Source: Phycisphaerales bacterium
GTDB lineage: Bacteria; Planctomycetota; Phycisphaerae; Sedimentisphaerales; Anaerobacaceae
DNA: 64,000 bases
Reading direction: 5' to 3'
NCBI GenBank assembly: GCA_020352215.1
Contig: CP070675.1
Coordinates: 5,446,234-5,510,233, forward strand
Shown piece after piece: positions 3 to 17,948 of the stretch. A program made the position numbers and the translations under genes. Under the pieces are notes generated by a model. That model was not told the origin of the DNA. It did not search any database and saw only the letters and a list, made by a program, of their open reading frames with translations. Positions within the stretch are counted from its first letter, which is position 1. Each line of letters starts with the position of its first letter.

Positions 3-356
3 GAAGCGGAGTGGGAAGTTATGAGAACGCTGTGGGCGAGAAGCCCGCTGACGGCAAACAAAGTCGTCGAGGCACTGTCCGTGACGAGGCCATGGAAACC
101 GAAAACGATAAAGACTCTGCTGAGTCGGCTGGTCAAGAAGAAGGCCGTCGGCTTTGAGAGAAAAAGTAGGGAGTACGACTACTACCCGCTTGTCACTGAA
201 GCTCAATGCGTCGGGGCTGAGAACAGCAGCTTTCTGCGACGCGTGTACGGCGGGGCAGCAAAACCGATGCTCGCCGCCTTTATTGAGAACGAACACCTAT
301 CTCGTGACGATGTGGAAGAGCTGAGGAGAATCTTAGACAAGAAGGGCAATGCATAA
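3..356 (+). CDS. BlaI/MecI/CopY-family transcriptional repressor, 5' end cut by window
   Basis: The frame is open from base 3 and reads EAEWEVMRTLW, the conserved start of helix 1 in BlaI/MecI repressors. The ATG at 21 is therefore internal and the true start lies just outside the window. A winged-helix DNA-binding region follows (TANKVVEAL, then the recognition helix KPKTIKTLLSRLVKKKAV, then the wing GFERKSREYDYYPLV). The C-terminal helices (about residues 80-111) are the dimerisation part. Known BlaI proteins are dimeric repressors of TACA-N2-TGTA palindromes and are inactivated when a partner M56 protein is triggered. The downstream gene overlaps by 8 bases (ATGCATAA) and encodes such an M56 partner, so the two form a sensor-repressor pair. 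A matching palindrome lies in the promoter at 14764-14792. Confidence 0.9.
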   Translation, partial: EAEWEVMRTLWARSPLTANKVVEALSVTRPWKPKTIKTLLSRLVKKKAVGFERKSREYDYYPLVTEAQCVGAENSSFLRRVYGGAAKPMLAAFIENEHLSRDDVEELRRILDKKGNA

Positions 357-3225
357 GATGGAGTATGTGCTTACACGACTGTCCCTGCTGCTCGGCTGGC
401 TGCTGGATTCTACCATCCAGGTGAGTGTTTTGGTCTGTCTAATCCTGGCCTTGAAAGGTTTGCTTGGCAGAAGACTCCCTGCAAGCTGGCACTATTGCCT
501 TTGGCTGCTGTTAATCGCACACATAGTCATGCCGTGGGCGCCCCAGAGCAGAGTTAGCCTCTTCAACCTGACTCCCGAGGTGGGTCACAGAATCACTGGA
601 ACACTTGCTTACTCGGAAGAAACAGCACCGGCCCCTGCTGAGTTCGAGGAGGTTTCGGAAACAGCACCTATGACAGCGCCGGAGCGAGTAGAGGCTGTGC
701 CAGATAGACCGGAAGAATTTGAGCCAAAAGCAGACCGGGGTCGGCTGGGGACAACCGAGGTATTGGCGCTTGTATGGCTCGCGGGTGCGATCGCTCTGGC
801 CGTACGAATCATCGTGGACAATTTCGGCCTTTGCAGAGCCATCAGATCTCACCGCGCAGTAACGGACCACAACGTGCTCGATTTGTTGGAGGACTGCAGG
901 AAGCAAGTGGGTGTCAGGACACTTCTTGGCGTTGTCGTCACAAACAGGGTCAAGGGCCCGGCGATTTTCGGCTTTGTCCGACCCAGACTGCTCTTGCCCA
1001 CGGGCATGATAGAGACATTCAGCCTTGAGGACCTGAGGCACGTTTTCCTTCATGAGCTGGCGCACCTGAAGCGACACGATATTGGCGTTGGTTGGCTAAT
1101 GGCGTATTGTCAAATTCTGCATTGGTTCAATCCTCTGGTGTGGTTCGCTCTGTTTCGGATGCGAACCGACAGAGAGCTGGCTTGCGATCAACTTGCCCTG
1201 TCAAAGATGGACGCCGAAGAATCCGACGGATACGGCCGGACGATAGTCCGTCTGCTCGAAGTTTATTCACAAAGCCGCCGGCTGGTCGCCTTGGTGGGTG
1301 TGTTGGAAGACAAAGCCCAATTGAAAAGGAGAATAGCAATGATCGCAGGATTTGAGAAACACACATACAGATGGCGTCTGTGGGCGGTAATTCTGTTGGT
1401 CCTGCTCGGTTGCGCAGTGCTGACAGACGGACGTTCCGGGGGAAGAAACCTCAAGTCGCTGAATGAAGCGGTGCCTGCAGACCTGCGGAGAAGTCTTGTG
1501 CTATATTACCCGTTCGACAAAGTCACAGGCGCAAGAGCAACCGACATTTCAGGCGCAGGCCGTGACGGCGTTGTGCACGGGGCCAGAGAGGTAGCAGATG
1601 GCAGAACAAGTGGGGCCATGTCTTTCGACGGCAGAAATGACCGCGTAAGCGTACGCAGGGTCTCGCTGAGCGCGTTCAGTCTTTGTGCTTGGGTGAGACC
1701 AGGACAGACCAGAGATGACGACGCTCGCGCGCTCTTTGTCCTCGATGGTAGCAGGACCAGGTGTGCCGTGGAAATCAACAACGCGGGCAATGCCAGAATC
1801 CGCGTTGTAAGTGGCAGCTCCGTCTTCGCTTCGAACCATTTCGCACCCGGCATGTCTGGAAACAACTGGATACACGTTGCGGCAACGTATGACCGAGGAA
1901 CACTCAGGGTATACAGGAATGCGGCACTACTGGGAATAACACACACCGATATCGGCGACGTCGCAGGCATGCTACACATCGGTGGAGCGCCCAGGTATGA
2001 CGGCCGCGCATGGCACGGCCTGATCGATGAGGTGGCGGTGTTCGACAAGGCGTTATCAGACGCAGATGTACTGCGAATCTGCGGTGCCGCTGGCCCCATT
2101 ATGGGGCCGCCAAGAGCTAATACCTGGGTCTCGCAGGCAATGAACTACCTCGAAGGAGTGGCCAGAGCCACGGACAACAAGGACTGGGACTCAGTGAACA
2201 AATGGGCAAAGAATCTGCGCCAAGTCTCCCACGACCTCAGATCGGCTGTCAACCTTGACACCGTTCGAGCCGAGTTGGAACGTGATGGAGAATTAGATGC
2301 GGCCCAGCGAGAAAGGCTGGAGCAACTCGATCAGACAAAGCAAGCAATCGAGGAGCTTGTCCCAAATGAAATCGAGAGAGAAGGGCTGAACAGGGTCATA
2401 TTCAGGACCGCAGAGCTGAGCGATGAGCTCATTGCGGCCTGCGATTCCCAAAACAATGAGCTCACAAATGAAATGTGTGGTCAGCTTCGTCGGCAGTGGC
2501 AAAGGCTTGGTCAGATGCTCGGGTCCAACACGTTAGACAATTACGGCGGGCCCGGGGCGCGATTTTCGCAAGGTGGTGGCTTCATTGCGGGTTCGGCTCG
2601 AGGCGGCTTCGGTGCGACTGGCGGAGGCGGCTTTGGCGGCTCAGGGTCTGTCAGTGGCGGCTTTGGTGGCAGCGGCGGTGGATTCGTTGGCGGCGGGGGT
2701 AGCTTCAGCAGCGGCTTCCAAGGCGGCGGTGCCCCGAGGCAGTTCATGGCCAGAATGAAACTCCGGTTCTTGACCCAGCGAGCGGAATCCGGGTTTGCCC
2801 AACTGCAGATGCTGCCCAGACTTCTTCAGACAAACGATTGGAATGGGGCAAGAATGGTGTCCAGACGCCTGGACGAGGTCTTTCTGGAATTCAAATCCAT
2901 TCTGAATGTCGACGGATCCCGGGCAGGGGCAACGGGGCCACGTCCCCGGCGCGGGCCTCCACCACGCAAGCTAGAGGACATGAAGCAGATGAAGCGCGTA
3001 ATTGACGAGCTGGCTGCCAACGACGCCGGGAAGGAGAATATCCGCACGGTGGTATTCAACATGGCTCAGCTAAGCAACAAGATGGTCGACTCCATCCGTG
3101 ACAAAGACCGGAGCGGCGCGACCCAGGCCTACGAACAGCTCGGCAAGGAGTGGAAGAAGTTCGCGAGGATCTTCGGCTGCAGAGAGGACTTTGGAACGCA
3201 ACCTGCCTTCCCCGGCAGCGGATAG
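349..3225 (+). CDS. BlaR1/MecR1-like M56 membrane metallopeptidase with LamG domain and Gly-rich tail
   Basis: A 958-residue membrane protein. Hydrophobic segments lie near residues 10-40, 45-62, 138-158 and 345-362. The M56 zinc motif HELAH is at 235-239, with the downstream RELACDQ that usually supplies the third ligand. In BlaR1/MecR1 this module is the cytoplasmic-side protease that leads to loss of the BlaI repressor. The extracytoplasmic part is unlike a penicillin sensor. It starts with a LamG/concanavalin-like domain (about 382-585, from LVLYYPFDKVTG to the end AVFDKALSDADVLRI). Two copies of a helical module follow (about 600-725 and 805-950), separated by a Gly/Ser/Phe-rich stretch near 735-800. 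The helical copies share NDW-N/D start patterns and a conserved end LGxxWxxxxxxxG/F. This suggests a signal other than beta-lactams, perhaps a glycan; that ligand is a guess. It is co-transcribed with blaI (8-base overlap). Confidence 0.85.
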   Translation: MHKMEYVLTRLSLLLGWLLDSTIQVSVLVCLILALKGLLGRRLPASWHYCLWLLLIAHIVMPWAPQSRVSLFNLTPEVGHRITGTLAYSEETAPAPAEFEEVSETAPMTAPERVEAVPDRPEEFEPKADRGRLGTTEVLALVWLAGAIALAVRIIVDNFGLCRAIRSHRAVTDHNVLDLLEDCRKQVGVRTLLGVVVTNRVKGPAIFGFVRPRLLLPTGMIETFSLEDLRHVFLHELAHLKRHDIGVGWLMAYCQILHWFNPLVWFALFRMRTDRELACDQLALSKMDAEESDGYGRTIVRLLEVYSQSRRLVALVGVLEDKAQLKRRIAMIAGFEKHTYRWRLWAVILLVLLGCAVLTDGRSGGRNLKSLNEAVPADLRRSLVLYYPFDKVTGARATDISGAGRDGVVHGAREVADGRTSGAMSFDGRNDRVSVRRVSLSAFSLCAWVRPGQTRDDDARALFVLDGSRTRCAVEINNAGNARIRVVSGSSVFASNHFAPGMSGNNWIHVAATYDRGTLRVYRNAALLGITHTDIGDVAGMLHIGGAPRYDGRAWHGLIDEVAVFDKALSDADVLRICGAAGPIMGPPRANTWVSQAMNYLEGVARATDNKDWDSVNKWAKNLRQVSHDLRSAVNLDTVRAELERDGELDAAQRERLEQLDQTKQAIEELVPNEIEREGLNRVIFRTAELSDELIAACDSQNNELTNEMCGQLRRQWQRLGQMLGSNTLDNYGGPGARFSQGGGFIAGSARGGFGATGGGGFGGSGSVSGGFGGSGGGFVGGGGSFSSGFQGGGAPRQFMARMKLRFLTQRAESGFAQLQMLPRLLQTNDWNGARMVSRRLDEVFLEFKSILNVDGSRAGATGPRPRRGPPPRKLEDMKQMKRVIDELAANDAGKENIRTVVFNMAQLSNKMVDSIRDKDRSGATQAYEQLGKEWKKFARIFGCREDFGTQPAFPGSG

Positions 3226-3235
3226 CAGACGCAGC

Positions 3236-4105
3236 TCAATGTGAGAGCGCATACATGATGATATTGATCCCCATCTGAATCGCTTTCTCGTAGTTCTCTC
3301 TACCGAATTCAAAACCCAAGCTGTCACACCAGCCGCAGTGAATATCGGTAGAGCTCAAGAAAACTGCGAGCCGGTCCCCCACAGAGACTCCCCTGGCCCC
3401 GTGATTCTGACCGTGCATATACGGCAGCCCGCGGACGTTCATGGGATTCCTGTGCTGCAAACTCGGCAGACCTGTGTCACCAAGATCGTAGACATTGTGA
3501 AACACTTCGTGCTCCAGCGGTATTCGTCTCACGGCTCCACGTCCGAACAGTTCCTCCAGCAGTTTGTAAGCACTCTGATAGAAGAAATCGCCGCCGGAGC
3601 CGACAACACAATCGTCCATCAGCAGGAATCCACCTCGCAGGACGTACTCTCGCAGGTTGTGCTTCTGGTTCTGGCTAAACTCGAAACCATTCTCCTCCGT
3701 CATGAATAGGAAGGGGTACTTCGTGAGTTCCTTCAGCTTATCCAAGGTGACCACTGCGTTTAGCTGACCCGGCTCTGCATAATTTGGCTGCCAGTTGTTC
3801 GTCCCCTTGACTGGTTTGACCTTGCATCGGACTACCGAGCTAAACTCTGTCAACAGATTCGCGTCCCCACCGGGTCTGACATTCCACACATCAGGTCCGC
3901 TGCCTCTGCCTTTGAATCGCTGTCCGGCGAACTGGACCCTCGGCAGGATGAAGTCATAACGGTCGATGTCCTCTTGATGTTGGGTCTGGACCGCCGCTGC
4001 AACACCTGCCGCGTAGGGGCAAGAAGACAGGGCAGCCCCGGCAACTACTTTGCCCGTCGTGCTCAGAAATCGCCGCCGGTTCATACTTTCATTCTTCTGA
4101 CTCAC
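3236..4105 (-). CDS. Tat-exported DUF4159 protein
   Basis: 289 residues. The N-terminus has a twin-arginine signal (NRRRFLSTTGKVVAGAALSS), so it is probably exported folded. A second possible start (MNRRRFL, 4084) sits just before the twin arginine. The body matches DUF4159: a YPFLFMT strand, then a NLREYVLRGGFLLMDDC core around residues 150-170 and a C-terminal GINIIMYAL. This family has a flavodoxin-like or class I amidotransferase-like fold with no assigned reaction. It regularly ends MoxR/DUF58/VWA operons in Planctomycetota and Bacteroidota. It overlaps the gene upstream by 17 bases, so it is the last gene of the seven-gene operon. It converges on the M56 gene with an 11-base gap. Confidence 0.8.
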   Translation of the reverse strand: MSQKNESMNRRRFLSTTGKVVAGAALSSCPYAAGVAAAVQTQHQEDIDRYDFILPRVQFAGQRFKGRGSGPDVWNVRPGGDANLLTEFSSVVRCKVKPVKGTNNWQPNYAEPGQLNAVVTLDKLKELTKYPFLFMTEENGFEFSQNQKHNLREYVLRGGFLLMDDCVVGSGGDFFYQSAYKLLEELFGRGAVRRIPLEHEVFHNVYDLGDTGLPSLQHRNPMNVRGLPYMHGQNHGARGVSVGDRLAVFLSSTDIHCGWCDSLGFEFGRENYEKAIQMGINIIMYALSH

Positions 4106-4946
4106 GGACGACCTCCTTCAGCCTCTGGGTAGAGAGGAAGAATTGTGACGCTATCATGCCGTCTTCGCCGCTCTGCTTCCATTTCCACGGCCGCGGGCTC
4201 GCCGTCCCATCTCCGTTATCTTCCAGCACCGGGGTCTCGGTTGTGAGCAGATGTCGCTGACGATACCAATCATCCAACTGTTGCGACGTGCGAGTGAACG
4301 CCTCCAGCAGTGACACTCTCCTATCACCATCTGCGTCACTTTCACTATCGGTAAGCGAGCCGACAAAATACTCACCGAATCTTGTGCTGTAATGCTGCTC
4401 ACCAGTGCAAGCACCTAAAACAATCCGTCCCCTACCCGCGATGTCCTTGATGGCGAGGCCGGCACCCGGACAATCCAGCACGACCAAGATAGAGGGTGCC
4501 TTGATCGGGTTCAGCCAGTCGGCCAACTGCAGGTGGGTAATGTCTTTGCCGGGCAAGTTAAGACGCAGCTTCTTGGCTACGACATTGGCTTGGCCCGCAT
4601 AGTAAAGGATAAACCTGTCTTCGGGCTTGATTTGCCGGGCCAGCGATTGAATCGTTTTTCGCAAGCTTTCGGCGGAGGAGGACTGCGAGTCGGTGCGAGC
4701 CGATGAGTGTTTGTCCGTCACCAGGAACAGCCGCTTTGGCTCAACCCTGCAGTGATTCAGGAAATAGTCGCGTAGCGTTGAGACGACCCTCTCCTTGGCC
4801 ATCCGTTCCGAAGGTTCCCTGATTATTCCGCTGACAATCAGAACATACGTCTCACCGCCCTGCTCATCACCCCCCGCTTGGGTAATCCCGGCTGAGACCG
4901 CACAGATCAAGAGAACCATGACAGCCACTCTATTCATATTGGCCAT
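4089..4946 (-). CDS. Exported caspase/C13-fold protein with altered catalytic dyad
   Basis: The start at 4946 is preferred over 4967 because GAGGA lies 6 bases upstream. That start gives a signal peptide (MNRVAVMVLLICAVSAG, cleavage near residue 24). The body has the caspase/legumain-like order: a YVLIVSG strand with KERVVSTLRDYFL helix, FILYYAGQA at 113-120, VVLDCPGAG near 155-163, and a later ACTGEQHYSTRFGEYFVGSL. In active members the YYAG motif is followed by the catalytic His (YAGHG) and the second motif carries the Cys. Here Q119 replaces the His while C159 remains. The protein is therefore probably non-proteolytic, for example a scaffold or binding protein. It sits between the VWA and DUF4159 genes of the MoxR operon. 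Confidence 0.65.
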   Translation of the reverse strand: MANMNRVAVMVLLICAVSAGITQAGGDEQGGETYVLIVSGIIREPSERMAKERVVSTLRDYFLNHCRVEPKRLFLVTDKHSSARTDSQSSSAESLRKTIQSLARQIKPEDRFILYYAGQANVVAKKLRLNLPGKDITHLQLADWLNPIKAPSILVVLDCPGAGLAIKDIAGRGRIVLGACTGEQHYSTRFGEYFVGSLTDSESDADGDRRVSLLEAFTRTSQQLDDWYRQRHLLTTETPVLEDNGDGTASPRPWKWKQSGEDGMIASQFFLSTQRLKEVVRESEE

Positions 4947-4953
4947 TCCATCC

Positions 4954-7179
4954 TCAAACAAGTCCAATCGCCCGCCGCAAGAACCAGCCCGTGCTAAGAA
5001 GCAGGCACAGGATCAGAAGTAGAGGCCAGTTGGGCCAGACGCTACTCATGCGGGTCGTAGTGCCTAAGCTCCGCCGGGCCTCAAATAGCTTCGCCACATC
5101 TTCGTCAATATCGTCCGCATGGAAGTATCTGCCGTTGAGCCTCTTGGCAAAGGCCCGCAGAAACTCCTCATTGAGCTCGATATTTGTCATCTCACCTACA
5201 GCGGGCGGCAAATTTGCGGCAATCGTCTTTTCGCCAAGAAACATACCATTTGTCTCTGCCTGAGCGGCGGCTACGATGGTCTGGTTCCCAACATCCTCGA
5301 TTTCTGCAACGTAACGCCCACGATCGGCGGGTCGCATGCTCAGCACTTGCCCTGCGACTCTGAGCAATACGTTCGCGCCGGCAACGGGGGCAAACGACTC
5401 GTCGCACACGTATGCGTTGAACTTCACCTTGTTGGTTCGATCGTTTGCGCGTTCGGCAAACAATTCCACCCCGGCCTCAAGACTCGACGTTCGGCCCAAA
5501 TAGGCCGTCAGCCCCGACATGACCTTATACAGTAGGCCGCCTTCGAGATCTTCTCGGTACCACTGGAACAACCGCGAAGCATTCAGCAAGCAGACCCTGC
5601 CTCGGCCGACTCGATGAACGGAAATAATCGGCGCATCGTCAACGACGGCCAGCGTCGCAGATGCAGGCTTTGTGTCGGCAATTTGATAAAATGCCAACGT
5701 CGGCTCACCGTGATCCTCCAAATCGGCTACACTTGCCACCGCCGCATCGGTTCCCTCCGGCGTAAGCTCAAGTCTTCCGACGCCGCGTGAACGCAGGCCG
5801 GGCTCATCCGATGCGAAGATTACAGGTATGAGCGACCTGATCGCTGCATTCTGCCAGCCGGCAGGGCCGTAGGTATCTCTGCCCGGAAGCAGGATCAGCC
5901 CGCCACCTCTGTCGACCACAAAGCTGTACAGCCCGTCGATTTGCGAGTCCCGCAACCCGTCGAGATCACACGGACCAAGAACCAGCACATCGTACTTGTA
6001 GAATCCTGCTCGATCTTCAGGCAACCTCACGTAGCCTGACGTATTCGCCGCCCTCGCCGACAGTCCAGGTATCTTGATCACATCCAGGCCCAGATCCAGA
6101 TCGATCTTACTGTCCCGGGCCAAGGCTTGCCGAACCTTGCCGATATCCAAGTTGGCCGTCTGACTATAGAAGAGGACCTTTACCCTCTCCTCTTGCACGA
6201 CCTCGACCATGGCACTGCGCTGGTTGTTCGCCAGATCCACTTCCTGCGCTACGGCCTCCACACGGGCCGAAAGTGTATGGATGCCGAGCCTGTCGGCGCT
6301 GACCGTGAACTCGACCGCCATTTCCTCAACCGCAGGATTCGAAATCTGTCGGTCCCGGGTCCTCTCTGCAATCGGTTCCGGCGATAACCGTTTCGAGTCT
6401 ACTGCCGCTCCATCTTTGAGCAATTCGACTGTCACCGGCTGATCGTTGACGTGCGTGGCGACAAGCGCGACTTGCACGCTGTAGGTCGTATCAATCATTA
6501 CCCGCGAGGGGGCCGTCATGGATTTCACCGCCACGTCACTTTGCGGACTCCGCGAGCCAACGCCAATCACGACAATCTGCAGATCGTTGCTGTGAAGCGG
6601 CAGATACGAGTTAACGTTCTTATCCGCAGCCTGACCGTCTGTAAAAATCACGGCACCGGCAACCTTGCCACCCGCACTCGACGCGTCTTCTTGTGAATCG
6701 CCTTGCGCCAGGTCATATCTGCCCAGCAGGTCGCGGACACTATGCATGTCCGTTCCGGAACCCCAGCGCCTCAGGAAACCCAATGAGCCGCTGTGATAAG
6801 TCCGCCGGTCGAATCCGAAGATTCTGTATTCGGGGCCCTCCGGGTCGGACGGCCGGAGTTCTTCTCTGAACACTTGAAGCGCCGCGTCCAGCCGAGTCGC
6901 CGCCCGTGTCTCAATTGTTGACATGCTTTCACTGGTGTCGAACAAGGCCAGTACAGGACGCCGGGAGAACATTTCTATATCTTTTGATCGCGATGGATTC
7001 CACAGTATGACCAGCAACAAGACGATTGGGACGTACTGCAGCACAGCGAGCGGCACCCGGTACCGTTTCAGTTTTGCCTTCCGAAATTCGCCCGACCGAA
7101 AGACAAAGAGTACTGCTGCAGTGGATGCAGCTAACAGCGAGATTACGATCAGATGTCCCGGATAGTTGGCAAATATCAT
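4954..7179 (-). CDS. Membrane VWA-domain protein of the MoxR operon
   Basis: 741 residues. Two N-terminal membrane segments (about 8-27 and 42-60) are followed by a von Willebrand A domain with a clear MIDAS motif, DTSES at 81-85, and a glycine-rich VIFTDG strand. A long Ig-like and beta-sandwich region and a GATase-like segment follow (LVLGPCDLDGL, GGGLILLPG). A final membrane helix lies near 712-735. This is the usual 'glutamine amidotransferase-like/VWA' partner of DUF4175 in MoxR operons. It shares 4 bases (ATGA) with the DUF4175 gene upstream. Its role is probably in assembling or inserting metal-dependent complexes at the membrane; the exact client is unknown. Confidence 0.8.
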   Translation of the reverse strand: MIFANYPGHLIVISLLAASTAAVLFVFRSGEFRKAKLKRYRVPLAVLQYVPIVLLLVILWNPSRSKDIEMFSRRPVLALFDTSESMSTIETRAATRLDAALQVFREELRPSDPEGPEYRIFGFDRRTYHSGSLGFLRRWGSGTDMHSVRDLLGRYDLAQGDSQEDASSAGGKVAGAVIFTDGQAADKNVNSYLPLHSNDLQIVVIGVGSRSPQSDVAVKSMTAPSRVMIDTTYSVQVALVATHVNDQPVTVELLKDGAAVDSKRLSPEPIAERTRDRQISNPAVEEMAVEFTVSADRLGIHTLSARVEAVAQEVDLANNQRSAMVEVVQEERVKVLFYSQTANLDIGKVRQALARDSKIDLDLGLDVIKIPGLSARAANTSGYVRLPEDRAGFYKYDVLVLGPCDLDGLRDSQIDGLYSFVVDRGGGLILLPGRDTYGPAGWQNAAIRSLIPVIFASDEPGLRSRGVGRLELTPEGTDAAVASVADLEDHGEPTLAFYQIADTKPASATLAVVDDAPIISVHRVGRGRVCLLNASRLFQWYREDLEGGLLYKVMSGLTAYLGRTSSLEAGVELFAERANDRTNKVKFNAYVCDESFAPVAGANVLLRVAGQVLSMRPADRGRYVAEIEDVGNQTIVAAAQAETNGMFLGEKTIAANLPPAVGEMTNIELNEEFLRAFAKRLNGRYFHADDIDEDVAKLFEARRSLGTTTRMSSVWPNWPLLLILCLLLSTGWFLRRAIGLV

Positions 7180-10100
7180 TTCTCTGTCCGTTGTGGGCTG
7201 AACTTGGCGGCATTTTCAAAAAACTCGTTCTGCAATTCGTAGAACTCCGCGTCAGCCGGTTCGTCTTCGATCAACCGCCCGTGACGTTTCTTGGCATTTA
7301 TCACGATTGACCAGAATTGCCGGGCCGTTTCCCTCGCCGCATCGGCGGCGGCCGAATGCCTGTCCTTTGTGAAAACGTGAGCGGCACCCGAAGATGTCCC
7401 GCCCTTGCTTTTGTCTACAGTCGACCATTGCGGCCCCAACATGCTTTCGAGCAGGCGCTTTGCGGCCTGGAGCCGGGCTGCCATCTGCTGGCGTTCCACC
7501 GGCGTGACAGACTCATCGAGAGCGTCCGCGTCGGCTGCCAATTGTTCCGCCATCTCCTGGGCCTTCTTCGCCATCTCTGCCGTCGGGCTAAGCGTTAGCT
7601 CGCCGCCAAGCGCCTTCTCCGCAAGGTCCAACTCCTCTCTGGCCGAGTCCATCAACTCCACGGCATTGGCGACCCCACCCTGCTTCACATCCGCTCGATA
7701 ACGGGCCTCGCTAAGTATGGCTCGCGCTTCGTCCATCTTGGAGATGGCTTGACCGAGGCGCTTCTGAGCTTCGTCCCGCCCCGAAGTCCCCTCGCCTTGC
7801 GAACTCGCCGGTAACTGCTCCAAGGCGTGCTTCAATTGCGACGTCCTTTCTTGCAGTGCCCCCTGTTTAGCCTGGAGCATCTTCAGTATCGCCCCGGCGC
7901 CAGCCACGCTTTGCTCACTCGTGCTTTGGCCCGGCAAGCTGACCGGGCGCACCGGTTGTACCCCGTCACCACCTGTGCCCCGCCCTCCGGGCGCAGCAGC
8001 ACCCTTCCCGGCGCCTTGACCCTGGGAAGCACTCCGACTCGGCGAACCTGTCTGACCCCGGGACAAACTCCGGCCTTCGGATGAAATCTGGCCCCGGGCG
8101 GGACTCTGACCCTGGGCGGGACTCTGACCTTGGGAGCCAGCGTAGCTTTGCGCGGCACTCTTGCTCGGCGACCCGCTTTGATCCCGGGCGGCGCCTCGAC
8201 CTTGGTCGGCTTGCCGGGGCCGCGAATCGCCCTCGCCATCACTTCCACTGCCCTTCGCCGGCGTATCCTCGCGAGACTGGGCCGCAACGCTTCCGGCCTG
8301 ACGCTCGCTGCCGGACTTGGCCCGGCCTTGCTCCTGCGACTCATTTGACGCCGAAAGCGCATCTCGGCTCTTCCGGCCAGATCCTTCTTGCTTGTCCTGC
8401 TGTTCAAGGAAATTCACAAGGTCGATCTTCAAGCTCTTCTGCTCCTGCGTTAGCTTGTCCAGCTTCTGCTGAAGATTCCTCACTTCGCTCTCGATCCGCT
8501 CTTTCTCATACCCGGACATCTCCGGCCTTTGTTCGAGCTTGACGCTGTCGGGCTTTGGCGCCTGTTGGCCGGTGCCGCTCGGAGGAGGCGACCATTCTTT
8601 CTCCAGCTCGATCACAAACTTGCGCAGGATCTGGTAGGCATTCCTCTCCGGCCGTATTGCAGAAGGGGCATCATGATTGCCAAGATATTCGCTCGCCTGC
8701 TCGTAGTGCGCCAGCACTTGATTGAGCACGGCTTTTTCACTATCGCCAAATCCATATTCCGAGTCGTCGCGAATAACCGCCAAGTGGTGCGCGCAGTACC
8801 GAACATCGTTGTTGATAAACTCCAGTCGCGAGCGATCCTGTTGTGTCACGCGCGCCCTGTTGGCTATGGCCCAGGTCTTCTTCAGAGCCGCCCTGGTATA
8901 TTCCAGGATATTGAGCAGGTTTTCGATTGCAGCTCCGCCGGAATTGCCGCTGCCGCCTCCGGCCTTCGGGTGCCAATACTGCCTGTAGGGCCCGATCTCA
9001 ATGAAGTACACATCGGTGCTGGCGGTCCTCGGCCCCGGACCCAAGCCCGTGTCAACGTCCGTCGCCCTGGCGTAGAACAAGATGCTGTCGCCAACATTCA
9101 GATCGTACCGCTCCAATTCAAGCGTGCGTGTAAGCTGCTCGCTCTTGGCACCGTCGGCCACCCGCATCTCCGTTTTCTCCGGTGCTCGCCCGGGAATTTC
9201 GACAAACATTTCCGCAGTTTCCAGGCCAAAATCATCGGTCACCTCGAACGTGATCGGCACGCTCGCGACATCCGTAGCGAGATAGTCGCCGTCCGGCGAC
9301 AGCAGCTTGAACTTCGGCAGCTCGTCGGTCTTGACGGTCACCTGTAGATCAGGCAGCTCATTGCTCGGCAGCCCTTGCTCACCAACGAGGTCAAATTCTA
9401 TTGCCCCCTCGTTGGCCGCAGCGAAACTGAAGGTGAACTGATCTGCGCCGTCGAGCTGTTTGGTTACGCGCTGTCCATCCGGCAGGGTAATCGTAGCCTC
9501 TCTCAGACGTTCGCTCGCGCGTACGCTCAGAGTGACTTCGCTGCCGCGCACGACCTCCAGGCTCTGGTTCTCGATCTGTTCTGTGTAAGGTTCGAGCCCC
9601 CGCGTTTCTCGCGAAGTCTTGGGCGGTGAGACAGTGGCTTCAACACCCTGGATATCTGGCGCGTGACATATGCTCAGCTTATGCCAGTCGGTAGAGCCCG
9701 AAGCTGTCTCAAATCTGTATTTGTACTGTCCGGTATCAGGAAAGGATCTGGACCGTTCGAGCTTGGAGTTACCCTGCCCATCAGAGCTCGGGTCTATTTG
9801 CATCTCCTGGCGTGCCGAGCTCGCAGCGGCGGTCGCGGCAGAGACAGCTTCAGCGGGCACAATCACCAGCCTTGCCGATTCAGTAGCGCTTCCCTCAATC
9901 TCAGCCGCGAAGGTCACTGTGGACCCCGGTTCTGCAACGATGTCTTTCGTGATCGATTTGACGCCCGTCGCCTTCACCTTCACCGGTTCTACCACTGCCA
10001 AGGGACGCACAAGCCTGGCAAAATATGACGCAAAGTAGACGTAGTTATCGCGGACGAAGTAGCCGGCCGTGGCGCCACCGGCGAGTATGATCGCAGCGAA

Positions 10101-10556
10101 GACGTATCCCCTCCATTTCTCGATGGTATCGTCGAACTTGAACTCGGCGCTGTCTCTATCAACCTTCAGGACCAGCTGCTCGGCAAGTGCCCTGGAATAC
10201 GGATAGTCCTTCCGGTTCTCGTAATACTCGACAGCCGTGACAAGCTGCTGGTCAAAACTCATTTTGTCTTCGATGTGACTTGCAGCCCGGCTGTGCGATA
10301 CGTGAGCAAGCAGCGAATTCGCCAACTTGTATAGGAGCAATGCAAGTCCCGCAAGCAGCAGCCCAAGCGCGACAGCCCTCTCGAGCGCACCAAAGTTCAG
10401 ACGGTGATCGAGCCAGGCATAGATGCCTATGTAACCCGATACAAAGATCAAACACAGCGCAAGCACTTTTAGAATCGCAAGCGCCACCATCCATCGCCTG
10501 ACCTTTGCGACCCTAACGACAAGGGCATTGAGTCTGTCTTCGACACTCTCAGCCAT
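7176..10556 (-). CDS. Large DUF4175-like membrane protein with low-complexity coiled-coil region
   Basis: 1126 residues. Three hydrophobic segments near 20-45, 52-75 and 150-170 anchor the protein. Beta-rich, Ig-like periplasmic domains (about 185-520) and helical regions follow. Residues about 720-890 are a low-complexity stretch dominated by Gln, Ser, Gly and Arg, with near-repeats such as GQSPAQGQSPARGQ. A long helical region ends the protein. The order resembles DUF4175 proteins found between BatA/VWA genes and MoxR in many bacteria. Function is not known; the architecture suggests a periplasm-spanning scaffold. Start ATG at 10556 is 13 bases after the stop of the BatA-like gene. Confidence 0.75.
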   Translation of the reverse strand: MAESVEDRLNALVVRVAKVRRWMVALAILKVLALCLIFVSGYIGIYAWLDHRLNFGALERAVALGLLLAGLALLLYKLANSLLAHVSHSRAASHIEDKMSFDQQLVTAVEYYENRKDYPYSRALAEQLVLKVDRDSAEFKFDDTIEKWRGYVFAAIILAGGATAGYFVRDNYVYFASYFARLVRPLAVVEPVKVKATGVKSITKDIVAEPGSTVTFAAEIEGSATESARLVIVPAEAVSAATAAASSARQEMQIDPSSDGQGNSKLERSRSFPDTGQYKYRFETASGSTDWHKLSICHAPDIQGVEATVSPPKTSRETRGLEPYTEQIENQSLEVVRGSEVTLSVRASERLREATITLPDGQRVTKQLDGADQFTFSFAAANEGAIEFDLVGEQGLPSNELPDLQVTVKTDELPKFKLLSPDGDYLATDVASVPITFEVTDDFGLETAEMFVEIPGRAPEKTEMRVADGAKSEQLTRTLELERYDLNVGDSILFYARATDVDTGLGPGPRTASTDVYFIEIGPYRQYWHPKAGGGSGNSGGAAIENLLNILEYTRAALKKTWAIANRARVTQQDRSRLEFINNDVRYCAHHLAVIRDDSEYGFGDSEKAVLNQVLAHYEQASEYLGNHDAPSAIRPERNAYQILRKFVIELEKEWSPPPSGTGQQAPKPDSVKLEQRPEMSGYEKERIESEVRNLQQKLDKLTQEQKSLKIDLVNFLEQQDKQEGSGRKSRDALSASNESQEQGRAKSGSERQAGSVAAQSREDTPAKGSGSDGEGDSRPRQADQGRGAARDQSGSPSKSAAQSYAGSQGQSPAQGQSPARGQISSEGRSLSRGQTGSPSRSASQGQGAGKGAAAPGGRGTGGDGVQPVRPVSLPGQSTSEQSVAGAGAILKMLQAKQGALQERTSQLKHALEQLPASSQGEGTSGRDEAQKRLGQAISKMDEARAILSEARYRADVKQGGVANAVELMDSAREELDLAEKALGGELTLSPTAEMAKKAQEMAEQLAADADALDESVTPVERQQMAARLQAAKRLLESMLGPQWSTVDKSKGGTSSGAAHVFTKDRHSAAADAARETARQFWSIVINAKKRHGRLIEDEPADAEFYELQNEFFENAAKFSPQRTEK

Positions 10557-10569
10557 GATAAGACTCCAT

Positions 10570-12627
10570 CTACCTCCTTAGCCTGCTCGCGATCGCCGGC
10601 TCGGCCAGGAGCAGAATCAGCAGAACCCAGGCAAGTATCCTCCAGAGGGGTCTTTTGCTTTGTTCGCCGAGGACATCCGCCAAGGCCGGACTACTTGCCT
10701 CATCAACCGAGAACACTTCGCTCATGACATTTGCGACCCGCAGCTCATTCGGCCTAGTCATGTTGGTCTCGCCATCCGGCAAATTGACGCCGGCATATGT
10801 CGTCGTCTCACCGATGGTCCGGACCCACCCAATGCCTGCGGGATCAGGTATTGACAAAGAGGACCCCGCCAGGGCCGCCCTTCTCCTCCGTCCGTCACAA
10901 GTCTGGACCCAAAGTTGTCTGTTCCGGCCAGGCTCCGATCCGGCACCGGGAAACGGCAACTGCACCGGCTCATCACATGCGAAGCCGTACTGGCTCAGCC
11001 GGCTTGTCTTGCCCAACAAATATCGACAAAGTGCAACCACGGCATTCGACTTGGTAACCGGCCCGAGCGAATCGTCGGCACTTGTATTAACAAAAAGGGA
11101 AGTACCGTTGGCCTGACGCTTGAGATAGACGAAGCCAAAGCCGTTGGCCAGCCGCCACAGAACTTCGCTGTCGGGGTGCTGCTCACACCGCAGATACCCA
11201 GTCAGGGCAATCTTGTCGATTCGGTAGTTGGCTAACGACCGTGCGGCACTGTCGTCTACATCAAGAGGCTGGCTGACACAAGGCCGCGGTTCCAGGTACA
11301 CACGCTCGCGCACACACTCGGTGGGCAGCGCCGGAAGAATACCCTGCCGCCACAACCTGTCCACGGCCGTCTGTGAGAACCGGTCAGTCGCGAAGAAGAT
11401 GACCTTACCGCCCCCCATAACGAAATTCGCCAGACCAGCGGCTGCACGGCCCAACTGATCCGAGATGGCCGAGCATATCACCATATCCGCCCACTGCAAT
11501 TGCGAACGATCAAGCTCGCTAATCAGAACGTGTTTGAGCCTCAGTGTGTCGTACGAGCTTGTCCGAGACAGCACATCCAGCGCTGTCTCCAACAAGAACA
11601 TTTCTTCACCGCCCCCGCCGGCCAAGATAACGTTCGTATTCTTGCGTTGAGGTATGGAGACAGCCACGTAGAACGTGTCGTCGGCCTCAAGGCCGTCTGC
11701 AGCCGATAGCTTCAGTTCGACCGGCAGGATCGATCCCCGTTCTTCGGAGACGCCTAAATCTATCTGGGCCTGGTGGATGCCGCGCTGACCCGGGGCAAGG
11801 CTAACATCAACGGGCGGCGATTTTTGTGACTCTACCTGGGCTGTCAGACGCCGCTTCTGCTCAACCTGGCCGTAGTTCGCTACCGTCACATCGAGAGTCA
11901 ATTTGCCACCATCTACGCCGACCGCGCGCGCATTCACGACCGCAGCATTGTCCGCCCGTTCCTCGGAGGCGACGGCCCTGTACTCAATAGCACCAACGGC
12001 GATTGATTCGGCGATGTGGCCAAACTGATCGAGCGTCTTCGGCGTGAAGTCGCTCGCAACAAAAACCGAGATCACATCGCCCGGACGCTTTTTCCTCACG
12101 GCCGTAGATAGCGTCGAAAGAAAGTCTGAGACATTCGCGCTGCCGGGGACAATCCGCAGACGTTTCAATTCCGCAAGCGCCCGCTGTTGGCTCAGGCCCT
12201 GGACCCAATCGCCAGAGGCCAGAGCACAAATATTGAACAGGCCGCCGGACTCTGCTCGTCGAACGTAATCCGCGGCGGATAAGACCATCCTCTCGAAATA
12301 GGTGTCACTGCCGTCAGAGTACGCCATTGACATCGAGTTGTCCAGGCCCAGGCAGTAGATATCTCGTGTTTCCGTTGCCTTGGGCGTAACGTGCAAGGCG
12401 GGGCGAGCGAACAATACAGCGATCAGAACGATGATCGCGCAACGCAGCAACAGTATCAGCAAGTCACGAAGCTTTCTGCGCGACTGGCTCTCAATCTGGC
12501 CGGCCCGAAGAAATCGCAGCATCGTAAACGGCAAACGCCTGTATCGCGGCTTAGCCAACAGATGGGCAATCACCGGCCCCGCCGCCGCCAACCCACCCAA
12601 CAAGAATATCCACGATGCAAAGGTCAC
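10570..12627 (-). CDS. BatA-domain VWA protein
   Basis: 685 residues. The first 80 residues are the BatA/aerotolerance N-terminal domain: a membrane segment (SWIFLLGGLAAAGPVIAHLL), the basic loop with KPRYRRLPFTMLRFL, then a second membrane segment ending FARPAL. A VWA-like domain follows with DNSMS at 96-100, which fits MIDAS DxSxS. A helix near the C-terminus (ILAWVLLILLLAEPAIA) is the last membrane anchor. Members are the membrane platform that works with DUF58 and MoxR. The start overlaps the stop of the DUF58 gene by 4 bases, so translation is probably coupled. Confidence 0.85.
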   Translation of the reverse strand: MTFASWIFLLGGLAAAGPVIAHLLAKPRYRRLPFTMLRFLRAGQIESQSRRKLRDLLILLLRCAIIVLIAVLFARPALHVTPKATETRDIYCLGLDNSMSMAYSDGSDTYFERMVLSAADYVRRAESGGLFNICALASGDWVQGLSQQRALAELKRLRIVPGSANVSDFLSTLSTAVRKKRPGDVISVFVASDFTPKTLDQFGHIAESIAVGAIEYRAVASEERADNAAVVNARAVGVDGGKLTLDVTVANYGQVEQKRRLTAQVESQKSPPVDVSLAPGQRGIHQAQIDLGVSEERGSILPVELKLSAADGLEADDTFYVAVSIPQRKNTNVILAGGGGEEMFLLETALDVLSRTSSYDTLRLKHVLISELDRSQLQWADMVICSAISDQLGRAAAGLANFVMGGGKVIFFATDRFSQTAVDRLWRQGILPALPTECVRERVYLEPRPCVSQPLDVDDSAARSLANYRIDKIALTGYLRCEQHPDSEVLWRLANGFGFVYLKRQANGTSLFVNTSADDSLGPVTKSNAVVALCRYLLGKTSRLSQYGFACDEPVQLPFPGAGSEPGRNRQLWVQTCDGRRRRAALAGSSLSIPDPAGIGWVRTIGETTTYAGVNLPDGETNMTRPNELRVANVMSEVFSVDEASSPALADVLGEQSKRPLWRILAWVLLILLLAEPAIASRLRR

Positions 12628-13581: not shown

Positions 13582-14625
13582 TTATGTCGGTAGAGGTACG
13601 TGCTCAACCACATCATCGAGAATTTGCTCGACGCTGACCCCATCGGCTTCGGCGTTGAAGTTGGGAATCACCCGGTGCCTGAGCACGAGTTTGCTGACGT
13701 CTCTGACATCCTCAAAACCCGGAGTAATGCGTCCCTTTATCAAGGCTTTGGCCTTCGCACCAAGGGTCATATATTGGCCGGACCTCGGACCGGCTCCCCA
13801 CTTGAGATATTTCTTGACCATAGGAGAGGCGAGCGGGTCGCTCGGCCTTGTCGCCCTGGCGAGCCTGATACCGTATGCGATGATCATGTCACTAACGGGA
13901 GCCATTCGGACGATCTCTTGAAACAGAACCATGTCGTCGCGATCAAGGATGTTACGAATGCTCTTCTTCTTGACGGTCGTCGTTTGTTTGACTATCAGGT
14001 GCTCTTCCTTGGCCGTGGGGTAGTCTATGAAGATCATGAACATGAACCTGTCGAGAGCCGCTTCGGGCAAAGGATACGTCCCTTCCTGTTCGATCGGATT
14101 CTGGGTTGCCAGAACAAAGAAGGGCTCATCCAGCCTGAAGGTTCTGCCTCCCACGGTCACCTCACGCTCCTGCATCGCCTGCAGCAGCGCGGCCTGGGTC
14201 TTCGGAGGTGTGCGATTTATCTCATCAGCCAGGACCACATTCGCGAAAATAGGCCCCTTGACAAACTCGTATCGTCTCTTCTTGGACTGAGGATCTCTCT
14301 GAATGATATCGGCGCCTATGATATCCGACGGCATAAGGTCGGGCGTGAACTGAATCCGGTTGAACTTGAGCTTCATAGCATCCGCTATGGAATGCACCAT
14401 CAGGGTTTTTGCCAGACCGGGCACACCCTGAACGATACAGTGCCCCCCCGCAAGCAAACAGCAAAGGATCGAGTCGATGACCGTCTCTTGCCCCACCACG
14501 ACCTTGTGTATCTGGTGCTTCAGGTCTGTATAGCCTTTGTACAAGCGAGCAATCAGCTGACTTTCATCGACTGCCCCGTTTACCCGGGCTTCTTCGAGCT
14601 TCTGCCCTGCAACGTCTTCCATCAT
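13582..14625 (-). CDS. MoxR-family AAA+ ATPase
   Basis: About 347 residues. The Walker A motif is GVPGLAKT (about 69-76 counted from the GTG at 14631). Walker B is VVLADE (about 132-137), followed by INRTPPKTQAALLQAM, the sensor and pre-sensor region typical of MoxR. The start was placed at ATG 14625 because GGAG lies 5 bases upstream; ATG 14622 and GTG 14631 are also possible. MoxR ATPases act as chaperones for metal-cofactor or membrane complexes with DUF58/VWA partners. It is the first gene of the minus-strand operon running to 3236. It is driven by the promoter at 14764-14792, which carries a BlaI/CopY-type palindrome. Confidence 0.93.
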   Translation of the reverse strand: MMEDVAGQKLEEARVNGAVDESQLIARLYKGYTDLKHQIHKVVVGQETVIDSILCCLLAGGHCIVQGVPGLAKTLMVHSIADAMKLKFNRIQFTPDLMPSDIIGADIIQRDPQSKKRRYEFVKGPIFANVVLADEINRTPPKTQAALLQAMQEREVTVGGRTFRLDEPFFVLATQNPIEQEGTYPLPEAALDRFMFMIFIDYPTAKEEHLIVKQTTTVKKKSIRNILDRDDMVLFQEIVRMAPVSDMIIAYGIRLARATRPSDPLASPMVKKYLKWGAGPRSGQYMTLGAKAKALIKGRITPGFEDVRDVSKLVLRHRVIPNFNAEADGVSVEQILDDVVEHVPLPT

Positions 14626-14763
14626 TGGCACTCCATGTTGCGTTCACGGTCGGCCTGCGAACCCCTCAAATATAATAGGTCGCCCCGGCGGTATTTCTGA
14701 TGCAAAAATCCCGGCAAATTATCCCACGCCGGGCCCGCCGTAGGCACATCATATGCCAAGCAT

Positions 14764-14792
14764 AAAATATTACAATTGTAATCTTTAGTCAA
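14764..14792 (-). promoter_or_regulatory. Sigma-70-type promoter of the MoxR operon with BlaI/CopY-type operator in the spacer
   Basis: On the minus strand: -35 TTGACT (14787-14792), 17-base spacer, -10 TATTTT (14764-14769). The perfect 14-base palindrome ATTACAATTGTAAT (14769-14782) fills most of the spacer and contains TACA-N2-TGTA, the core recognised by BlaI/MecI/CopY proteins. Occupancy would block polymerase binding. The expected start of transcription is near 14757, leaving a leader of about 130 bases before moxR. The rest of 14626-15176 holds no convincing gene. Confidence 0.7.
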
Positions 14793-15687: not shown

Positions 15688-16995
15688 TCACTGTCCGGCA
15701 GAGAGGTCCGCACAGAGCAGCTCCTCGTCATTCCTCGCATAGATGTGTCTGTTGGCAAAGGCCGGATGCGACCAGCAGACTCCGCCGCGCTGGCCGAGCT
15801 GTCCGAGCGTGGGAGCAAGAAGTTTGGCCCGGCTGATTTCGTGAAACCCCGCTGCCGATAGCTTGCTGATAATAAGTTCCCCGCGTTCGTTGAACATCCA
15901 TATTTTGTCTTCGTGCCGGACCATGTGGATGTTAGACCAGCGAGCCTTCGGGACGGCTTCAAGACTTAGCCATATCCGGTCCCCGGTTCGCAAATCCAGG
16001 CACCGAAGCTCGCCGTAGCTGTCCACACCGTAGATATAGTCTCCCTGTATAACAGGTGTGGATATGCAACAATGGAGACTGTCCGTTTCACGTTCGTTGG
16101 GGCCCTTGCGTCTCCACACTTTCTTCACAGTCAACTTGTCAGGATCAACCGTGAGCAGAAGCGAGCCGTCGTAGAAGCTGCTGACGAAGAGATGCCCGTC
16201 CTGAAAGACGGGAGTGGCAATCCCAATAACCATTCGAGATACCTCAAACGGATGCTCCCAGTGGAGCTTGCCCGTCGCCGGATCGAGCCCCGCCACCCTT
16301 GCGCCGGTCCAGCAAACCAACACACGCTTGCCCGCCTGCTCAATAATGATCGGGGCCGAGTACGATGCACGGTCATCGAGGGCCCGCCACCGCTCTTTTC
16401 CTGTCACCTTGTCAAAGGCGACGAGGCAGGCGTTGTCCCTGCCCCCTATTTGCACTAGGACCAGACCTTCCTCGACCAAAGGCGCGGCCGCTATCGCCCA
16501 CTCGGGCATCCTGATCTTGTACTCGGTATTAAGGTCTCTGTTCCAAATAACGTCCCCCCGCGCCGCGTCAAAACAGAACAGATGTCCCATGCTGCCGAGC
16601 GAGTAGACCCGGCCGTCGTCGATAGTGACGGCCGCCCGTGGACCATCCCTGTACCCAATCTTCTCGTAGTTGCACTCGTAGGTATGGGACCAGATCGGCT
16701 CGCCGGTCATCGCATCGAAACAGTGCACCCGCTCGACCTCGTTTGGGCTCGTCTGGCGGTCGGTGACATACACCCGGCCGTCGGCAACCGTCGGCCCGCT
16801 GTAGCCTGCCCCGATCTTGGTGCGCCAGCGAATCGGCAACTGCTTATGCTCGAACTTCTCCACAATGCCCTTTTCGCGCCAGACGCCATCACGATTAGCA
16901 CCTCGCCATTGCGGCCAATCCGCCCCACGGCACGGTCGAATCTGCACCAAAACAAACAGCCCACAACAGACTGCGATTGCACATACTCGATTCAT
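15688..16995 (-). CDS. Exported PQQ-like beta-propeller protein
   Basis: 435 residues from ATG 16995, chosen because GAGGAG lies about 10 bases upstream and the product then opens with a signal peptide (MNRVCAIAVCCGLFVLVQI, then CRGADWPQWRG). DWPQWRG followed by GVWREKG is the usual opening of planctomycetal PQQ-like repeat proteins. Repeated blade patterns follow: VYVTDRQ...HCFDAMTGEPIW, VYSLGSMGHLFCFDAARGDVIW, LVAFDKVTGKERW, GLDPATGKLHW, LRCLDLRTGDRIW. The fold is a WD/PQQ-like propeller; no cofactor or catalytic residues can be assigned. It lies tail to tail with the small exported protein (10-base gap) and is the only gene of its unit. Confidence 0.85.
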   Translation of the reverse strand: MNRVCAIAVCCGLFVLVQIRPCRGADWPQWRGANRDGVWREKGIVEKFEHKQLPIRWRTKIGAGYSGPTVADGRVYVTDRQTSPNEVERVHCFDAMTGEPIWSHTYECNYEKIGYRDGPRAAVTIDDGRVYSLGSMGHLFCFDAARGDVIWNRDLNTEYKIRMPEWAIAAAPLVEEGLVLVQIGGRDNACLVAFDKVTGKERWRALDDRASYSAPIIIEQAGKRVLVCWTGARVAGLDPATGKLHWEHPFEVSRMVIGIATPVFQDGHLFVSSFYDGSLLLTVDPDKLTVKKVWRRKGPNERETDSLHCCISTPVIQGDYIYGVDSYGELRCLDLRTGDRIWLSLEAVPKARWSNIHMVRHEDKIWMFNERGELIISKLSAAGFHEISRAKLLAPTLGQLGQRGGVCWSHPAFANRHIYARNDEELLCADLSAGQ

Positions 16996-17037
16996 GTGAC
17001 TACACTCCTCTAAAGACGCGTCAAAATATGATGGAGA

Positions 17038-17066
17038 ATGATAACAAAACCCCCTCACAAATGCAA
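17038..17066 (-). promoter_or_regulatory. Possible promoter of the PQQ-like propeller gene
   Basis: Minus strand: TTGCAT (17061-17066), 17-base spacer, TATCAT (17038-17043). The spacing is ideal and both boxes are close to consensus. It sits 43 bases upstream of the start at 16995. Confidence 0.4.
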
Positions 17067-17128
17067 AAGTGTTTGAATGCTGCCTGGTATATCGTCTGCC
17101 ACGCTCGCTGGGAAGCGGGCATTTTCTG

Positions 17129-17158
17129 TTGACTTGGAGCCTGAAAAACGCGTATAAT
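17129..17158 (+). promoter_or_regulatory. Sigma-70-type promoter of the prepilin-like gene
   Basis: TTGACT (17129-17134), 18-base spacer, perfect TATAAT (17153-17158). The expected transcription start is near 17165, 34 bases before the start codon at 17199. Confidence 0.7.
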
Positions 17159-17198
17159 GCGCTCACCATTTCTGTCATTGGAGAAAGTGCCTGCTGCA

Positions 17199-17948
17199 AT
17201 GAACAGTCAAAGAGGCTTCACGCTCATAGAACTGTTGGTGGTCATCGCCATCATAGCGCTGCTGATGTCGATACTGATGCCGTCACTGCAGAGAGTGCGG
17301 AACCAGGCCAGGGCCGTAACATGCCGGTCGAATCTGCGCCAGTGGAGTCTCTACTTCTTCTTATACACCGACGACAACAACGGCTATTTCCACCGAGGCT
17401 GGAACGAGGGCCCCGATTTCGATTACAGTTGGATGGTCGCGCTCCGGCCGTACTACCTGGACAATCAGAAAATTTGCTTCTGCCCGACCGCGACGAAGCC
17501 TCGCGACGAGGGCGGCACGGCGACCTTCGGAGCATGGAGAAACACGTTGGGCGAGGTCGGCAGCTACGGCATCAATATATGGGTCACCAACCCCCCTCCC
17601 GGAAGGGAAGGCGGCAGGCCGGCCGAGCACTACTGGCGAAAGCGCGACCTCACCGGGGCAGCCAACATACCGCTGTTCTTAGACGACTACTGGTGGGATA
17701 CGCGGCCGGACCATACCGATCTGCCGCCGGAGTACGAAGGCGAGGTCAACGACTGGACAAACAACGCCATGAAGATGCTCTGCCTCAACCGACACAACGG
17801 ATTCACCAACGGAGCTTTCGTGGATTTCTCCGCAAGGAAGATCGGCCTAAAAGAGCTGTGGACGCTCAAGTGGCATCGCGCCTACGATCTCGACGCCCCC
17901 CTGCCGATATGGCCCGACTGGATGAGCAACTTCAAGGACTATCAGTGA
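17199..17948 (+). CDS. Type IV prepilin-like protein (N-terminal methylation motif, DUF1559/H-X9-DG type)
   Basis: 249 residues from ATG 17199, giving the exact prepilin start MNSQRGFTLIELLVVIAI. Cleavage by prepilin peptidase is expected before F7, with E at +5. The hydrophobic helix continues to LMPSLQRVRNQAR. The middle has the pattern CRSNLRQW...TDDNNGYFH...MVALRPYYLDNQKICFCPTA. The end RHNGFTNGAFVDFSA fits the H-X9-DG-like tail seen in Planctomycetota and Lentisphaerota, where such proteins occur in tens to hundreds of copies. Its own promoter lies at 17129-17158. The 3' end overlaps the convergent GH2 gene by 17 bases. Confidence 0.9.
   Translation: MNSQRGFTLIELLVVIAIIALLMSILMPSLQRVRNQARAVTCRSNLRQWSLYFFLYTDDNNGYFHRGWNEGPDFDYSWMVALRPYYLDNQKICFCPTATKPRDEGGTATFGAWRNTLGEVGSYGINIWVTNPPPGREGGRPAEHYWRKRDLTGAANIPLFLDDYWWDTRPDHTDLPPEYEGEVNDWTNNAMKMLCLNRHNGFTNGAFVDFSARKIGLKELWTLKWHRAYDLDAPLPIWPDWMSNFKDYQ

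Follow-up and report, generated by a model that had tools for sequence, protein, structure and literature searches.

A candidate BlaI operator in the promoter of a moxR operon convergent with a blaI-M56 gene pair in a Phycisphaerales bacterium

In the window, the whole stretch of 64,000 nucleotides of a Phycisphaerales genome (G000) that was analyzed here, the promoter of a seven-gene moxR (stress/chaperone) operon contains a perfect palindrome of the BlaI operator type, and a gene pair coding for a BlaI repressor and an M56 protease is located at the other end of the operon. We consider it probable that this BlaI represses the moxR operon, that the M56 protein relieves the repression upon a surface signal, and that this control was acquired in one lineage. 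BlaI/MecI-type DNA switches control penicillin resistance in staphylococci. MoxR/DUF58/BatA operons are widespread but little understood, and what induces most of them is obscure; the targets of the many BlaI-M56 pairs of Planctomycetes are likewise obscure. The site links one such planctomycete pair to a specific operon, and provides a testable induction route.

The moxR promoter and the neighboring blaI-M56 pair

The operon moxR-DUF58-BatA-three genes-DUF4159 is compact and co-directional, and extends from 14631 to 3236 on the minus strand. Its first gene, moxR (13582..14631, start codon uncertain), codes for an AAA+ ATPase (PF07726), and is followed by genes coding for a DUF58/VWA-like protein (PF01882; 12624..13520) and a BatA-like protein (PF07584 match at the N terminus; 10570..12627). 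The open reading frames and Pfam matches of these three genes, closely spaced and in the same direction, place the operon among the MoxR/Bat operons. The next three genes code for a large protein without a Pfam match, called DUF4175 in the earlier note and kept in orthologous operons (7176..10556), a 741-aa protein without a significant Pfam match, common to all orthologous operons (4954..7179), and a 292-aa protein whose caspase-like similarity is weak and below the cut-off (4089..4967). The final gene codes for a DUF4159 protein (3236..4105). The extended seven-gene operon is also present in Phycisphaerae, Brocadiia, and Hydrogenedentota.

Upstream of moxR, the minus strand from 14792 to 14764 reads TTGACT-AAAGATTACAATTGTAA-TATTTT, a sigma-70-like promoter with a spacer of 17 bp, and the end of this promoter lies ~130 bp from the moxR start. 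The -35 element TTGACT (14787..14792) and the -10 element TATTTT (14764..14769) are both also present in G009, a relative described below. The earlier note had claimed a palindrome in the 17-base spacer ahead of moxR, which the sequence confirms: ATTACAATTGTAAT, a perfect 14-bp palindrome without strand (14769..14782), is the predicted BlaI operator. The 18-bp sequence AGATTACAATTGTAATAT around it (14767..14784, minus strand) fits the MecI/BlaI operator consensus, [AG]NATTACA[AT]NTGTA[AG][TG]NT, at all positions, and overlaps the promoter (PMC5341023). Perfect 14-bp palindromes are not unusual in the window (3 seen, ~3.9 expected), but the TACA-N2-TGTA core is unusual (1 seen, 0.1 expected). 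The earlier note had also proposed scanning the genome for the 14-mer and its one-mismatch forms. A pattern search of the 6.2-Mb genome (6,198,157 bp) found TTACANNTGTAA at this single place, while with one mismatch allowed there were 34 matches, below the 41 of the reversed-pattern control, and no large BlaI regulon was found in this search.

The blaI gene (PF03965, 4.3e-34) is located at 3..356 on the plus strand, and overlaps by 8 bp (349-356) with the gene coding for an M56 (BlaR1-type) metalloprotease (PF05569, 2.6e-63; 349..3225, plus strand). A BlaI and M56 pair at 3-3225, at the operon's other end, had been noted before; its presence and place hold, but the pair is convergent with the operon and does not belong to it, the M56 stop at 3225 and the DUF4159 stop at 3236 being separated by 10 bp. 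The start and promoter of blaI are lost in what looks like a scaffold gap, 100 consecutive Ns ending at window position 1 (L002:9901-10000). The blaI operator of this genome is therefore unreadable, and blaI autoregulation is seen only in relatives. Runs of 100 Ns with the appearance of scaffold gaps were also observed in L009.

The BlaI protein belongs to the MecI/BlaI family by its Pfam match and by sequence matches to the structures 1sd6, 1okr, and 1sd4, resembles MecI (1e-25), and has the recognition helix WKPKT. The C-x-C metal motif of CopY was sought in it and is absent. The M56 protein contains transmembrane segments, a HELAH motif at residue 235, corresponding to the HEXXH of BlaR1/MecR1, and a LamG domain (PF13385), the sole Pfam match in its C-terminal part, where no penicillin-binding sensor was found. 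It is BlaR1-like and not a BlaR1. The LamG domain suggests that the ligand is a glycan or something at the surface, and a surface signal other than penicillin probably turns the moxR operon on. Where the cleavage pair is N-F in staphylococci, the window BlaI has S-F. Given this substitution and the lack of a penicillin-binding domain, control by the protease is proposed by analogy. It is conceivable, though unlikely, that repression of the moxR promoter by BlaI is not relieved by the adjoining M56 protein, with BlaI answering to another protease or only dampening basal expression. The non-conserved cleavage pair and a LamG sensor without an assigned ligand would agree with this, but the two genes overlap and remain paired in relatives, and the HELAH motif is present. 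By analogy with the known pairs, induction of the moxR operon by the M56 protein is likely.

Recognition residue, promoter architecture, and conservation

The operators before the blaI genes of 67 BlaI proteins were compared with the proteins themselves. Across L040-L228, the outer bases of the operator can be predicted from a single recognition-helix residue, the one preceding the conserved T. The K-T motif goes with ATTACA..TGTA[AG]T (21/22), E-T with GTTACA..TGTAAC (11/11), R-T mostly with ACTACA (7/12), and [ST]-T with TCTACA or TTTACA. K-T/ATTACA BlaIs are spread over several tree branches, so the match is not explained by shared descent alone, and it offers a route to assign the targets of other BlaI proteins. 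The window BlaI is of the K-T class. The genome has six PF03965 matches in total, and one of the paralogues might bind the moxR operator instead. This is very improbable, because the other readable blaI promoters carry TGTACAAATGTACG (L005, TGTACA) and TCTACACTTGTAGA (L006, TCTACA), or no such operator site (L007), and these paralogues differ from the window BlaI in the recognition helix, the WKPKT/ATTACA class being represented by the window BlaI alone. From the K-T/ATTACA match and the different sites at the paralogues, we attribute the moxR operator to the BlaI of the window, and judging from these sequences, the moxR operon is very likely controlled by its neighboring BlaI.

The composite TTGAC-N3..8-ATTACANNTGTA was found at 20 sites in 89 genomes of the family, compared with 1 for the reversed control. 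Fourteen of these sites precede blaI, where the earlier note had proposed looking for the palindrome in related genomes, two precede moxR (G000 and G009), and four precede unrelated sequence; among the further composite sites in the rest of the order, all 11 that were checked precede blaI. Such composites mark blaI promoters, and therefore the moxR promoter is built like a blaI promoter of the K-T/ATTACA class with an equally placed operator. A point against the proposed control is that the moxR promoter has one operator, whereas most blaI promoters of the ATTACA class have two, as in G009 and most relatives.

Among the relatives that share the blaI-M56/moxR layout, G009, which belongs to another genus of the same family, is the nearest, and its MoxR, BlaI, and M56 proteins are 88-89%, 81%, and 70% identical to those of G000, respectively. 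It has the same genes and the convergent layout at the blaI end, split over two contigs with the break inside the operon. Its moxR promoter carries GGTTGACTTTCGATTACAGTTGTAGTATTTTATACTTGG, and the identity between the two genomes is 80-85% across the 40-bp promoter, 10-30% upstream, and ~50-65% just downstream. In the 4.3-Mb G009 genome, ATTACANNTGTANT has exactly two exact matches, one in the moxR promoter and the other in the blaI promoter. That the palindrome is due to chance, or is a leftover without function from the copying of a blaI promoter, is the least probable explanation: about four 14-bp palindromes are expected per 64 kb, but the 40-bp footprint is kept in G009 between diverged flanks, and composites otherwise mark blaI promoters, with a single reversed-control site in the 89 genomes.

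Distribution of the operator and an ECF-type promoter among relatives

The earlier note had taken conservation of the palindrome before orthologous moxR genes as a test of its interpretation. The operator is conserved in G009, whose blaI-M56 pair has the same location, but not outside G000 and G009. It is absent before moxR in 27 other orthologues (at least 60% identity), and none was found before the moxR genes of G007, G018, G016, G024, G033, and others. Universal conservation before moxR thus fails. The interpretation in the earlier note is supported in part: the proposed link to BlaI is strongly supported by the G009 footprint, the blaI-type promoter architecture, the recognition-residue match, and the repeated gene linkage, and induction through an M56-sensed surface signal is proposed by analogy with the mechanism of the family. 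Retention of the operator exactly where the blaI-M56 pair shares its position fits the prediction of lineage-specific recruitment.

A TGTnACA-N15-CGTCTA-like element precedes moxR in 13 of 28 orthologues, compared with 0.2% of shuffles, and is missing before moxR in G000 and G009. Such elements resemble ECF sigma promoters such as ECF41 (TGTCACA-n16-CGTC; PMC3426412). They were observed upstream of moxR in L198, L199, L200, L201, L202, L203, L103, L074, and L106. Since the operator is missing at 27 moxR promoters, many of them of ECF type, its presence looks like lineage-specific rewiring, and we read the sequence of the G000/G009 moxR promoter as a swap from ECF-type to BlaI-controlled.

In G065, G100, and G102, moxR is directly preceded, on its own strand, by a K-T/ATTACA blaI-M56 pair. 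The M56-moxR gap of these genomes (~460-520 bp) has no operator and retains an ECF-like promoter, so BlaI could control moxR there only by read-through from blaI, which is possible. The pair comes and goes beside selB, with selB-blaI-M56 with or without moxR, or selB-moxR alone, observed in L213, L198, L200, L202, and L072; G087 has selB-blaI-M56 without moxR, and in G066 and G007 moxR is near selB and the cassette is missing. An independent origin of the G065, G100, and G102 arrangements is not claimed, because a single ancestral insertion beside selB followed by losses is an equally good explanation, and these arrangements may descend from one such insertion. In L204 (G061), a truncated M56 gene without blaI lies upstream of moxR (~16500-17440) and may be what is left of such a cassette. 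In L075 (G024), a BlaI of another class (875-1216, 31% identical) and an M56 gene lie divergently upstream of moxR; this BlaI, of the TTTACA/TCTACA type, was not counted as an instance of the link.

A broader interpretation, to which we give an even chance, is that, in the family, a BlaI/M56 module that senses the surface through LamG became linked to the MoxR/VWA operon more than once, with ECF-sigma control replaced by proteolytic derepression in one lineage and the pair placed directly upstream of moxR in others. MoxR would then answer a glycan or envelope signal, and one BlaI helix residue (K, E, or R before T) would set the outer bases of the operator.

Proposed control and comparison with known systems

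In the proposed model, the BlaI encoded at 3-356 would bind the palindrome as its operator, and the dimer in the -35/-10 spacer would block RNA polymerase and keep the seven-gene operon off. Upon a non-beta-lactam surface signal, the co-encoded M56 protease, with LamG in its extracytoplasmic part, would be activated and inactivate BlaI by cleavage, which would free the promoter, and the MoxR/VWA system and, through autoregulation, blaI-M56 would be induced together. BlaI control was presumably gained in the G000/G009 lineage, replacing the ECF-sigma-type promoter of many relatives.

The arrangement is similar to the BlaI-BlaR1 and MecI-MecR1 systems of staphylococci and Bacillus licheniformis, in which a PF03965 repressor gene is likewise accompanied by an overlapping M56 protease gene, and an ATTACA-N2-TGTA operator likewise lies within a sigma-70 promoter, with autoregulation expected. 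However, the sensor of those systems is penicillin-binding and that of the window is LamG; their target is a beta-lactamase or PBP2a, whereas here it would be a MoxR/VWA operon; their pair is divergent from the target and not convergent with it; and the recognition helix is WSPKT in MecI and WKPKT in the window BlaI. The CopY/CopR copper repressors, which have a TACANNTGTA core in their operators (PMC7253601), share the repressor fold and this core with the system described here, but the window BlaI has no C-x-C metal motif and is co-encoded with an M56 protease. Among the papers searched, no published BlaI control of a MoxR-DUF58-BatA-type operon was found. Compared with the MoxR-DUF58-BatA ("Bat"/aerotolerance) operons, the operon of the window has moxR, DUF58, and BatA in the same order, and differs in its BlaI-type operator and the adjoining blaI-M56 pair. 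The proposed BlaI control of the MoxR operon would be a lineage-specific variant of known regulation.
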